Source: Bacillota bacterium
GTDB taxonomy: Bacteria; Bacillota; Bacilli; Bu12
Length of the DNA stretch: 64,000 nt
Direction: 5' to 3'
Assembly (NCBI GenBank): GCA_014896485.1
Contig: JADBKH010000001.1
Coordinates: 1 to 64,000, forward strand
Part shown: one piece after another, positions 6,510 to 21,411 of the stretch
How positions within the stretch are numbered: position 1 is the first letter of the stretch
How the letters are laid out: each line of letters starts with the position of its first letter
Notes under the pieces: generated by a model
What the model saw: only the letters and a program-made list of their open reading frames with translations
Database searches by the model: none
Told to the model about the DNA's origin: nothing
Translations under genes and position numbers: made by a program

Positions 6510-6797
6510 TTGCTCGTCTTGACGCGTAAGGCCAACCAGTCGATCATTATTGGGGAAGATATTGTGGTGACGGTCATCGCCGTCGAAGGTGATGCGGTCA
6601 AAATTGGAATCGATGCGCCCAAAGATGTCTCGGTCTTTCGGCGCGAGGTCTATGAGACGCTGCAGCGGACGACATCGGACAAGCCTGACGAGGGAGAAGG
6701 AGGGGATGTTGTGCAAGAAGCGCTGCGCAAGCTCGATGCACATGCACCCCCTTCCAGGAAAATGTCCGAACAGCGCCGCCGTAGACGTCAGTCCTGA
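6510..6797 (+). CDS. csrA: Carbon storage/translation regulator CsrA
   Basis: The family start LLVLTRKANQSIIIG is clear. The best start is TTG 6510 with GAGGTG about seven bases upstream, giving 95 residues with the usual 60-70 residue CsrA fold and a longer, basic C-terminal tail ending in a run of Arg. CsrA binds GGA motifs in mRNA leaders and blocks ribosomes. In B. subtilis its main target is flagellin mRNA and FliW is its antagonist. No fliW is present in this window, and csrA sits before a chemoreceptor gene rather than beside fliW and hag. GGA sites in the hag leader here suggest the same target. Confidence 0.93.
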   Translation: MLVLTRKANQSIIIGEDIVVTVIAVEGDAVKIGIDAPKDVSVFRREVYETLQRTTSDKPDEGEGGDVVQEALRKLDAHAPPSRKMSEQRRRRRQS

Positions 6798-17468: not shown

Positions 17469-18392
17469 ATGATGGCAAACCGGGTGACCTTGCCCATGTT
17501 ACAGCAGCAGCTCCTTGCCGGGCTCTCTGCCCTGCAGTCGCAGTTGCAGCAGACCCAGTCGCAGATGACCACCGGCTACCGGATCTCCTTCCCTTCCCAA
17601 GACCCGGGCTCCTCCCAGCTGATCCTGCAGTACAACGGCGCCATCGCCCAGATGCAGGGCTGGCAGCAGAACGCCCAAACGGCAGTCTCGACGCTGCAGG
17701 CAACCGACGGCTCCGTAGGGGAGCTGCAGCAGGTCTTGCAGCGGGCGCGGACGCTGGCCATTCAAGGAGAAAATGGGGCCATGACCGCAACCGACCAGGC
17801 GGCTTTGGCCAACGAGATGAGGCAGCTCTACCAGCAGGCGGTGACCATCGCCAACACCACGTTCGGCGATCAGTACCTGTTCGGCGGAACTTCCTTTTTT
17901 GGGGCAGGGGAGCGCGGCCCGGCACAGCCTTCCGCAGGCGATCTCTCCCCTGTGGTCTGGTCCGGCAATGGGAAGGAGGTGATGCTGGCGACAGGCAGCA
18001 GCACGCAGTTGGCATCCACCGCCAACGGTCAGGATGTATTCGACGTGACGGGGACGAGCTCCAAGCTGCTCGATGCGCTGTACAGCGCCTATCAGGCGCT
18101 GGAAAACGGCGATGCCACGGCGCTGGGGGACGCGACCGCACAGCTGGATCAGGAGGCGGCGCACCTTTCTGCTGCACGGGCGCGGATCGGTGCCCAGCAG
18201 AACCAAGCCCAGGCCACATCGGACATGCTTGCTGCCGCAGTTGCCACCTACACCGATCGCTTGCACCAGCTGGCCGACACCGATATGGCGCAAGCCATTA
18301 CCACCTTAAACCTCAACCAGACGGTCTACCAGGCGGCCCTGGCGACAGGTGCCAGGATGATGCTGCCCAGCTTGGCCGATTACTTGGCCTGA
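17469..18392 (+). CDS. flgL: Hook-filament junction protein FlgL (HAP3)
   Basis: 307 residues (306 if the second ATG is used). The N-terminus resembles flagellin (LQSQLQQTQSQMTTGYRISFPSQDPG) and the C-terminus carries the axial coiled coil (ITTLNLNQTVYQAALATGARMM). It is the second junction ring, on which flagellin polymerises under the FliD cap. GGGAGGGG lies upstream of the start. It precedes hag by 66 bases. Confidence 0.93.
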   Translation: MMANRVTLPMLQQQLLAGLSALQSQLQQTQSQMTTGYRISFPSQDPGSSQLILQYNGAIAQMQGWQQNAQTAVSTLQATDGSVGELQQVLQRARTLAIQGENGAMTATDQAALANEMRQLYQQAVTIANTTFGDQYLFGGTSFFGAGERGPAQPSAGDLSPVVWSGNGKEVMLATGSSTQLASTANGQDVFDVTGTSSKLLDALYSAYQALENGDATALGDATAQLDQEAAHLSAARARIGAQQNQAQATSDMLAAAVATYTDRLHQLADTDMAQAITTLNLNQTVYQAALATGARMMLPSLADYLA

Positions 18393-18412
18393 CGGTGTTT
18401 TCCAAGCAGGGA

Positions 18413-18458
18413 GGCTTCGGAAGGTCAGCCACTTTGATACAAGGAAGGAGTAAGGACG
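18413..18458 (+). promoter_or_regulatory. hag leader with CsrA-type binding sites
   Basis: GGCT (18413-18416) and AGCC (18427-18430) can pair to show a GGA (18419-18421) in the loop. ATACAAGGAAGG (18437-18448) matches 10 of 12 positions of the CsrA consensus RUACARGGAUGU and overlaps the ribosome site GGAAGGAG. Two GGA sites, one over the ribosome site, are the arrangement by which CsrA represses hag in B. subtilis. Confidence 0.5.
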
Positions 18459-19721
18459 ATGGCTTTCTCGGTGGTCTACAACCCACAGGCGAGCAACACG
18501 CTGCGCAACCTCAACATCACCAGCCAGAAGATGAACAACCTGAGCGCCCAGCTCTCTTCGGGCCTGCGCATCAACAAGGCAGCCGACGACGCCGCAGGTC
18601 TGGCGATCAGCCAGAAGATGCTCGCCCAGATCAACGGACTCAATCAGGCGACCCAAAACGCCCAGGACGCCATCTCGCTGATTCAGACCGCAGAAGGTGC
18701 CTTGGGCCAGCAGCAGGATATTTTGCAGCGCATGCGTACGCTGGCGGTCCAGGCAGCCAACGACACCGCAACTACCAGTGATCGTGCGCAGATCCAAAAA
18801 GAGATGGATCAGCTTGCCCAAGAGCTGACCCAGATTTCCAACACCACCCAGTTTAACACCCAAAAGCTGCTGACGGGCCAGTATTCTGCCACGGGACTCA
18901 CCTTCCAGGTCGGTGCCAATGCCGGAGAGAACATGCAGGTGACCCTCGCTGCAGCAGATGCCAAGTCTCTGGGTGTTACGAGAGATATGGTTGACACTGC
19001 ATCCGCAGGGACAACAAGCTCTGACGGAACAGTATTTACTGGGTCGACGGCTGTGGTCAGCAACTTGACAGTTTCTTCGAGTGATGGGTATGCGCTGACT
19101 GCTGGTACTGGCGCATATCAAGTGGTTTATAGCGCTACTGCCTCTGGCACTGGCCCATACACACTCAGTGGTCAAGCCCTTCAGTTACAGGATGGTTCCG
19201 GTAACAACATTGGTAATGCTGTAGACGTCAGCGCTGGAGCAGGTGACTATGTCGTAGGGGATGCAGCGACCGGTCAAGCTATCCACCTGCACTTTTCGGG
19301 CGAACCCGCTGCATCTGCTGCAGGAAGTGGGAACGTCACTACTACTGTGAATACTAGTGCTTCCTCACCTTCGGCTTCTGGGAGTGCTGCTAACGGTTGG
19401 AAAGCTACAGTTTCAGGCGGCATTTCTATTATGACCCAATCGAGTGCGGATGCCGCCGTTACGACCATTCAGAATGCGATTGACACCATCTCCGGGTATC
19501 GGGACAACCTGGGTGCGGTACAGAACCGCCTGAATTACATCATCAACAACCTGACCAACTCGTCCCAGAACCTCTCCGATGCCAAGTCGCAGATCACCGA
19601 TACCGACATGGCAGCGACGATGTCCCAGTTCCAGCAGAACCTGGTGCTGCAGCAGGCTGGCATCTCCGTGTTGGCTCAGGCCAACCAGTTGCCCGGTCTG
19701 ATCATGAAGTTGTTGCCTTAA
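18459..19721 (+). CDS. hag: Flagellin
   Basis: 420 residues, the filament subunit. The conserved D0/D1 arms are clear: N-terminal LSSGLRINKAADDAAGLAIS and C-terminal SQITDTDMAATMSQFQQNLV with the hydrophobic end. Between about residues 180 and 325 lies a Ser/Thr/Gly/Ala-rich central domain, the surface-exposed variable part. Its DNA (about 18970-19430) has visibly more A/T-ending codons than the arms, as if exchanged or evolving separately. The start is the ATG after GGAAGGAG. Translation is probably repressed by CsrA through the leader. Confidence 0.96.
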   Translation: MAFSVVYNPQASNTLRNLNITSQKMNNLSAQLSSGLRINKAADDAAGLAISQKMLAQINGLNQATQNAQDAISLIQTAEGALGQQQDILQRMRTLAVQAANDTATTSDRAQIQKEMDQLAQELTQISNTTQFNTQKLLTGQYSATGLTFQVGANAGENMQVTLAAADAKSLGVTRDMVDTASAGTTSSDGTVFTGSTAVVSNLTVSSSDGYALTAGTGAYQVVYSATASGTGPYTLSGQALQLQDGSGNNIGNAVDVSAGAGDYVVGDAATGQAIHLHFSGEPAASAAGSGNVTTTVNTSASSPSASGSAANGWKATVSGGISIMTQSSADAAVTTIQNAIDTISGYRDNLGAVQNRLNYIINNLTNSSQNLSDAKSQITDTDMAATMSQFQQNLVLQQAGISVLAQANQLPGLIMKLLP

Positions 19722-19731
19722 GGGAAACGAC

Positions 19732-19871
19732 AGGGCCCCACGGAGGGGGCCTACAGCATGCCTGAAGGCGTGTCGAATGCCCAGGGAAGGGACGGGCGGC
19801 GTCCTACGATCGCTTGCGAAATGTGGCAGTGCAGGAACCACGGAGGACTGCAGCGACACGGAGGTCGCAAG
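19732..19871 (+). ncRNA. Foldable RNA with three ACGGAGG motifs between hag and fliD
   Basis: This 230-base gap contains no gene. A stem (19732-19739 with 19745-19752, seven of eight pairs) shows ACGGA in its five-base loop. A second structure is closed by CTTGCGA (19813-19819) and TCGCAAG (19865-19871), with an inner GCAGT/ACTGC pairing. ACGGAGG occurs at 19740-19746, 19840-19846 and 19858-19864. GGA in hairpin loops is the CsrA target form, so it may be a CsrA sponge or a regulator of fliD. Both ideas are inference. Confidence 0.35.
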
Positions 19872-19891
19872 GCTCTGATTCTTCTGTTTTT

Positions 19892-19917
19892 CCCAGGCCC
19901 GGATTTCCGGCCCTGGG
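19892..19917 (+). terminator. Strong hairpin between hag and fliD, possible terminator
   Basis: An 11-base stem with one mismatch (19892-19902 with 19907-19917) and an ATTT loop. A T-rich stretch ending in TTTTT lies some 10 bases later, so it is not a textbook terminator. It could partly end the abundant hag transcript or protect its 3' end. Confidence 0.4.
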
Positions 19918-19953
19918 GTACATATCCTTTTTGCGTAAGGAGAAGGTGGCAGG

Positions 19954-21411
19954 ATGGCGCTGGGACTGATCTCGTTTGGGGGCATTGGATCAGGGTTGCC
20001 GGTCAACCAGATGATCGACGCGCTGGTGCAGGCCAAGCAGGCACAGCAGCAGCCGCTGCAGACCCGTCAGACCCAGTTGACCCAGGTACAGGCGGCCTGG
20101 CTCACCCTCGCCTCGCCCTTCTCGGCGCTGCAGGCCGCGGTGCAGGGGCTGAGCGATCCGGCAAACTGGCAGGCGCAAAAGATCTCCTCTGGCGATGCTT
20201 CTGTGGTGACGGCTGCATTGGCACCAGAAGGCCCGGCTCCTGTTGCCGGTACCTACACGGTGGCGGTCTCCCAGCTGGCCCAGGCGGCTTCGGTCACCTA
20301 TCGCTTTTCAGGAGAGACGCTCGGCTTTGACGGCACGTTCCAGGTGGGCAATGACGGGACACAGCCGTTGACGGTCCAGTCGTCGGAAACGGTCGAAGCG
20401 CTGGCCGATGCGATCAATGCCAGCCACCCGGGGATCTCTGCCGCCGTCATCCATGGCAGCGACGGTACCTATCTGGTGCTGACCAACGACCAGACAGGTG
20501 CCAGTGCAGGGCCAGTCGATGCCTCCGGCAACCTGATGATCACGTGGAGCAGTCCGGTCGGCGATACGGTGCCTACCCCCTTTCTCCGCACCGCAGGCCA
20601 GGATGCCCAGGCATTGATCAACGGTATTGCTGTCACCAGTGCGACCAATACGTTTTCCAATGTCCTCCAGGGAGTCTCCTTTACCGCCCAAAGCACCGGT
20701 ACGACGACCCTGACAGTCACCAGCGATCTCTCTAAACCCGAAGCGGCCCTCAACAGCTTCATCCAAGCGTATAACGCACTGGTGCAGGCGGTAGACAAAC
20801 AGGCCTCCTACGATGCGAGCACCCAGACTGCAGGGCCCCTCTTCGGGGATACGGTGCTGCAAGGGATCTTGGATCGCTTGTCTGCGACCATCTTGGGATC
20901 AGGAACCAGTGGCACAGGGATCACCTCGTTGGCCCAGCTGGGCATCGTCTTTAATCGTGACGGAACGCTCGGCTGGGATACGACGTCTGGGAACAGCGCC
21001 AATGCGGGCCAGGTTGGCTTAGATGGTAAGGCGATCTTTGAAAGCGCCTGGGCGGCAGATCCTCAGGCCGTGCAGTCGTTTTTCGGAGTGCAGTCGATCG
21101 GCGGCTTGAGTCCAACGGCAGGATTCAGCGGCAGCCTCTATGCCTTGCTGGACAGCGTCACCCGCCCCATGGGGACCTTGGCACAGGTCGGGCAGGGCTT
21201 GGATGCCTCGCTGAAGATGGTCAACGACCAACTGGCCACGTTTCAGGATCAGCTCAATGCTTACAAGCAACGCATTACCGCCCAGTTGAATGCGATGGAT
21301 CTGGCCGTCGCCCGCTACCAGCAGATGGGAAGTTTGCTGGTGGCCCAATTCCCGCAGATCTTTGGAAAGAGCAGTTCCTCGGGCGGAAGTTTCTCTTCTG
21401 CTTCCGCCTAA
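19954..21411 (+). CDS. fliD: Filament cap protein FliD (HAP2)
   Basis: 485 residues. The N-terminus GIGSGLPVNQMIDALVQAKQ and the C-terminal coiled-coil part (LDASLKMVNDQLATFQDQL...YKQRITAQLNAMDLAVARYQQM) match FliD, which forms the cap that folds incoming flagellin. AAGGAGAAGG lies upstream of the ATG. It follows the structured hag-fliD gap and precedes the flagellin chaperone gene fliS, the usual pairing. Confidence 0.94.
   Translation: MALGLISFGGIGSGLPVNQMIDALVQAKQAQQQPLQTRQTQLTQVQAAWLTLASPFSALQAAVQGLSDPANWQAQKISSGDASVVTAALAPEGPAPVAGTYTVAVSQLAQAASVTYRFSGETLGFDGTFQVGNDGTQPLTVQSSETVEALADAINASHPGISAAVIHGSDGTYLVLTNDQTGASAGPVDASGNLMITWSSPVGDTVPTPFLRTAGQDAQALINGIAVTSATNTFSNVLQGVSFTAQSTGTTTLTVTSDLSKPEAALNSFIQAYNALVQAVDKQASYDASTQTAGPLFGDTVLQGILDRLSATILGSGTSGTGITSLAQLGIVFNRDGTLGWDTTSGNSANAGQVGLDGKAIFESAWAADPQAVQSFFGVQSIGGLSPTAGFSGSLYALLDSVTRPMGTLAQVGQGLDASLKMVNDQLATFQDQLNAYKQRITAQLNAMDLAVARYQQMGSLLVAQFPQIFGKSSSSGGSFSSASA

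Follow-up and report, generated by a model that had tools for sequence, protein, structure and literature searches.

What does the spacer between the flagellin gene hag and fliD do in a Bacillota genome that carries csrA and in which no FliW was found? Many bacteria restrain CsrA with FliW, and Gammaproteobacteria do so with sponge RNAs; in Bacillota, FliW is the usual antagonist. We addressed this question in a 64,000-nucleotide stretch of DNA (the window), in which hag (PF00669/PF00700) occupies positions 18459 to 19721 and fliD (PF02465/PF07195) positions 19954 to 21411, leaving a spacer of 232 nt (19722 to 19953). All features described below lie on the forward (+) strand.

Motifs and predicted folds of the hag-fliD spacer

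A preliminary description of this DNA had reported that the gap holds no gene. Indeed, the overlapping open reading frames of the spacer, on either strand, matched no Pfam family, so it contains no recognizable gene, and the possibility of a hidden one was rejected. Consensus scans were empty for a sigma-A-like promoter within the spacer and for a sigma-D-like site in or near it, and a promoter of either type inside the spacer was rejected on that basis. Nor did these scans show a clear terminator in the spacer. An Rfam search of the spacer at gathering and relaxed thresholds (E up to 5) returned no Csr/Rsm family and nothing else of relevance. Membership in a repeat family or mobile element was rejected, given that the genome holds no second copy of the spacer.

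The three identical heptamers noted earlier are present: ACGGAGG begins at 19740, 19840, and 19858. Each is preceded by C, so that all three copies read CACGGAGG, and each is able to occupy an ACGGA(G) hairpin loop. All are instances of CANGGANG, the core of the published CsrA/RsmE consensus, (A/U)CANGGANG(U/A) (PMC6692469; PMC4894983). A fourth instance, CAGGGAAG (19782 to 19789), had been missed. The four CANGGANG sites, starting at 19739, 19782, 19839, and 19857, fit in 126 nt, with gaps of 43, 57, and 18 nt between successive sites.

In the predicted folds, hairpin 1 (GGGCCCC-ACGGAG-GGGGCCU; 19733 to 19752) holds the first copy of the heptamer with a loop presentation probability of 0.96, and hairpin 2 (UGCAG..CC-ACGGA-GG..CUGCA; 19830 to 19852) holds the second with a probability of 0.71 to 0.82 (0.71 in the full-length ensemble). 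The predicted ensemble has the site at 19782 mostly in paired form, with a loop probability of 0.02. For the third copy, two mutually exclusive states were predicted, a feature that had escaped the preliminary description. In fold A, a multi-stem at 19813 to 19871 is closed by perfect pairing of CTTGCGA (19813 to 19819) with TCGCAAG (19865 to 19871), and the third copy is occluded. In fold B, the same copy sits in hairpin 3 (GCGAC-ACGGAG-GUCGC; 19853 to 19868), which matches (A/U)CANGGANG(U/A) at 10 of 10 positions. The energies of folds A and B, computed on a 67-nt stretch, are about -23.1 and -19.0 kcal/mol, respectively, and the predicted loop probability of the third copy is 0.95 locally versus 0.10 in full context. 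The preliminary description, with one motif in a hairpin loop and two inside a multi-stem closed by the perfect CTTGCGA/TCGCAAG pair, was otherwise correct, but the 3' hairpin (19892 to 19917), given there as 11 bases long, is not a run of 11 perfect pairs: it has 10 pairs and one C-C mismatch. This hairpin has no adjacent U-run and lies where relatives carry a simple hag-fliD hairpin.

Clustering and loop presentation relative to controls

Across the whole window, ACGGAGG was found 11 times against 9.3 expected and is thus not enriched, and the folding of the whole spacer is ordinary (z = -1.35). What is unusual about the spacer is the clustering of the sites and their presentation in loops, not the heptamer count or the overall folding. 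Whole-genome counts were made on a 2,173,759-base sequence (2.17 Mb) reassembled from stretches. There, CACGGAGG occurs 50 times, with 3 copies within 126 bp in the spacer and no other cluster among the positions listed. CANGGANG occurs 1463 times on both strands, and the spacer is the sole genomic site with four occurrences within 130 (or 250) nt. Because 5 of 59 other letter permutations of CANGGANG, used as controls, also gave at least one quadruple within 130 nt, the clustering by itself is suggestive, not conclusive.

Loop presentation was compared with controls in three ways. Only one quadruple of ANGGA hairpins within 150 nt was found in the genome, that of the spacer, whichever cutoff between -5 and -8 kcal/mol was applied; GNAAG was the one control motif among three with any hairpin quadruples, 4 at -5 and 1 at -6 kcal/mol. 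When the motifs were held fixed and the remainder of the sequence was shuffled, loop presentation of the three copies exceeded that in 299 of 300 shuffles, and with the fourth site included it exceeded 398 of 400. Genome-wide, the share of CANGGANG occurrences with a perfect stem of 4 or more pairs equals that of the control motifs.

CsrA-type sites in the hag leader

The leader of hag holds two further sites, CAGGGAGG at 18407 and CAAGGAAG at 18440, which are 33 nt apart. The upstream CANGGANG site could form a hexaloop hairpin (AAGC-AGGGAG-GCUU; 18404 to 18417) that competes with UUUUCC pairing, and its GGA is possibly paired in the predicted fold. The downstream site overlaps the Shine-Dalgarno (SD) sequence and lies inside a CsrA-like element, AUACAAGGAAGG (18437 to 18448), recognized as a CANGGANG match; the CsrA consensus obtained by SELEX is RUACARGGAUGU (PMC7652899). 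An upstream site paired with an SD site is the known arrangement at Bacillus subtilis hag (PMC7652899), and the leader described here, with two CsrA-type sites of which one lies over the SD, appears to share that layout. When the genome was searched for such pairs before a start codon, hag was the only recognized gene start found; the few others precede unverified open reading frame starts. Since the spacer quadruple is unique and the leader pair occurs at a recognized start only at hag, the densest cluster of putative CsrA sites and the clearest putative CsrA operator flank the same gene.

Upstream of hag (18392 to 18459), a sigma-D-like promoter was looked for and not found, so transcription of hag may start at the promoter of a flagellar operon farther upstream. 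At the other end of the spacer, the SD region of fliD (AAGGAG at 19937) carries one ANGGA, which is not a CANGGANG match.

csrA without a detectable FliW

The genome encodes a single CsrA (PF02599, E = 4.6e-25; 95 amino acids, TTG start) at 6510 to 6797, 12 kb upstream of hag. The FliW family, PF02623, had no match in this genome, which is 96% complete and in which the csrA flanks are intact in the contig; at this completeness, a FliW gene located away from csrA could have been missed. Among 121 Bacilli genomes, 80 carry csrA and 78 of those also carry FliW, the two exceptions being the present genome and one other (G010). In 299 genomes of the phylum, csrA was found in 213 and FliW in 204, and several of the remaining exceptions at the phylum level are fragmented assemblies or weak csrA matches.

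The CsrA protein itself has lost a FliW contact residue. Residues V/I51 and N55 of CsrA are required for FliW binding, changes at N55 abolish that binding, and N55 is conserved in every FliW-type species examined (PMC7829508). In our alignment, the N55 position is T and position 51 is L in the present genome, and N55 is found in 14 of 14 aligned FliW-bearing relatives. The alignment also shows that MLVLTRK and R44, which belong to the RNA-binding face, are retained. The protein has a long C-terminus with an arginine-rich tail (RRRRRQS) at its end. Most FliW-bearing relatives carry csrA beside fliW; here, a chemoreceptor-like gene comes after csrA, which stands apart from hag. Two other genomes (G639 and G679) have no FliW match yet keep N55, and in G679 csrA lies near a contig end.

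Direct searches with the spacer sequence in 60 Bacilli genomes matched only the spacer itself, scans of GTDB r220 with FliD and FliG gave no close relative, and no second species with the element was found. In 22 relatives, the 232 nt downstream of hag contain zero CANGGANG sites; their spacers hold a simple hairpin and the SD of fliD or flaG. The hag-fliD spacers of the nearest families are short, lack the motif, and are not homologous. A general rule by which FliW loss brings a hag 3' array was rejected, as G010 and a second csrA-bearing genome of the Bacillota without FliW (G556) have no such array. In G010, two CsrA domains are fused in one frame (a tandem CsrA) beside hag. In G556, a short CsrA without the C-terminal extension is encoded directly upstream of hag, and the 164-nt hag leader holds two CANGGANG and four ANGGA motifs.

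Proposed function of the spacer and alternative explanations

The earlier reading of the heptamers as GGA motifs of the CsrA type is strengthened by the match to the published consensus, the hexaloops, the uniqueness of the cluster in the genome, the presence of csrA, the two hag-leader sites, and the absence of a FliW match. We propose, and give an even chance, that the 3' untranslated region (UTR) of hag carries, in this spacer, an array of CsrA-binding sites that takes over the part of FliW in RNA form, titrating CsrA and thereby easing the repression of hag. That repression would come from CsrA bound across the two leader sites, the upstream one and the one at the SD. The spacer, transcribed together with hag, would offer three to four ANGGA loops and might accommodate as many as two CsrA dimers on each transcript, because its spacings of 43, 57, and 18 nt fall within the range of 10 to 63 nt over which one dimer bridges two sites (PMC7652899). 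Produced in step with hag mRNA, the 3' array would sequester CsrA and lower the free pool, and such titration would limit how strongly CsrA represses hag and its other targets, if any, as an RNA version of the protein antagonism exerted by FliW in other Bacillota. The third copy would be hidden in the CTTGCGA/TCGCAAG multi-stem, and formation of the local hairpin would display it in a hexaloop; cooperative or switch-like binding of CsrA may result. More tentatively, and with somewhat less than even confidence, we suggest that a Bacillota lineage has lost FliW and that a sponge in the 3' UTR of the flagellin mRNA replaces the protein antagonist, creating positive feedback from hag transcription to hag translation.

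A sponge should display several ANGGA motifs in the hairpin loops of one RNA, and the spacer has three that are well presented locally and two at full length. Several observations count against a sponge. At full length the third copy is mostly hidden, the site at 19782 is mostly paired, and a total of three to four sites is small beside that of CsrB. The stability of hairpin 1 is very high, whereas SELEX ligands for CsrA mostly had no more than 4 contiguous pairs (PMC7652899). In addition, the two other clear csrA-positive, FliW-negative genomes examined (G010 and G556) lack a 3' array on hag.

The main rival to the sponge makes hag not the chief object: the array would be a CsrA operator in a long fliD 5' leader, through which CsrA would govern translation of fliD, decay of the mRNA, or read-through past the 3' hairpin. 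The spacer can just as well be called the 5' leader of fliD, the SD region of that gene contains an ANGGA (19937), and the 3' hairpin follows shortly after the two-state stem. Moreover, the Escherichia coli pgaA leader, in which six CsrA sites affect translation and termination by Rho (PMC7652899), shows that several sites can serve one downstream gene. However, 90 to 215 nt separate the strong sites from the downstream start of fliD, whose SD is not a CANGGANG match, consensus scans gave neither a sigma-A-like promoter in the spacer nor a sigma-D-like site nearby, and the two-site repression layout occurs at hag, not at fliD. We consider an operator for fliD unlikely, though far from negligible. 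CsrA might instead bind the array and act in cis on hag mRNA, through protection or exposure of the 3' end or through control of its processing into a stable 3' fragment, with no meaningful titration. Such an action would suit an abundant mRNA whose 3' end carries stable hairpins, and CsrA is known to stabilize or destabilize the RNAs that it binds (PMC7652899), but several high-consensus sites exceed what a single stabilizing site would need, and we regard this explanation as very unlikely.

It is also conceivable, though quite unlikely in our judgment, that CsrA has no role and that the spacer holds GC-rich terminator or stabilizer hairpins whose purine loops resemble CsrA sites by chance. 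The unremarkable overall fold energy, the quadruples formed by 5 of the 59 permuted motifs, and the equal genome-wide share of stems for CANGGANG and control motifs all favor coincidence, and an 8-mer found post hoc to be repeated is not rare in a genome. Against this, the motif class was fixed by the literature and not picked from the window, the motif is absent after hag in the 22 relatives, and this cluster, unique within a csrA-bearing genome, adjoins the classic CsrA target of Bacillota.

Relation to known CsrA antagonists

The preliminary statement that no element of this form has been described was slightly too strong: the flaA mRNA of Campylobacter jejuni is a described flagellin-mRNA sponge, whose 5' leader titrates CsrA (Dugar et al. 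2016, PMC4894983) with FliW alongside. This closest precedent has CANGGANG-like hexaloops on a flagellin mRNA that is a target of CsrA and antagonizes it too, the double role proposed here for the hag mRNA. In C. jejuni, with FliW as main antagonist, the sites occupy the 5' leader, whereas here a 3' array accompanies the 5' sites and no FliW was found. Thus, CsrA sponges (CsrB/RsmZ) and a CsrA-titrating flagellin mRNA (flaA 5' leader, FliW present) are known already; for a 3' array on hag in FliW-less Bacillota, we found no description in the open-access literature.

Other systems share parts of the arrangement. Like CsrB/CsrC and RsmX/Y/Z of Gammaproteobacteria, the spacer combines multiple GGA hairpin loops per RNA at bridging distances, but it is part of or next to an mRNA, has 3 to 4 sites, and has no Rfam match. 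With the B. subtilis Hag-FliW-CsrA partner switch it shares a hag leader with upstream and SD-overlapping CsrA-type sites; it differs in that the FliW gene was not found, CsrA N55 is lost, and csrA lies 12 kb from hag and not beside fliW. The E. coli pgaABCD leader likewise combines several CsrA sites with alternative folds over a long untranslated stretch, but the array here is intergenic (hag-fliD) and the downstream SD is not a full consensus site.

FliW and sponge-RNA systems are strongly anti-correlated, and the small-RNA route has been proposed to be rare or absent outside Gammaproteobacteria (PMC4682653). If our proposal is true, a FliW-less Bacillota genome with a flagellin-mRNA array would be a natural case of one CsrA control replacing the other, and the array makes it testable how flagellin homeostasis survives FliW loss. 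In the members examined, the flagellated families nearest by FliD (f7, f47, and f48) lack csrA as well as FliW, a pattern that suggests stepwise loss of the flagellin homeostasis system.
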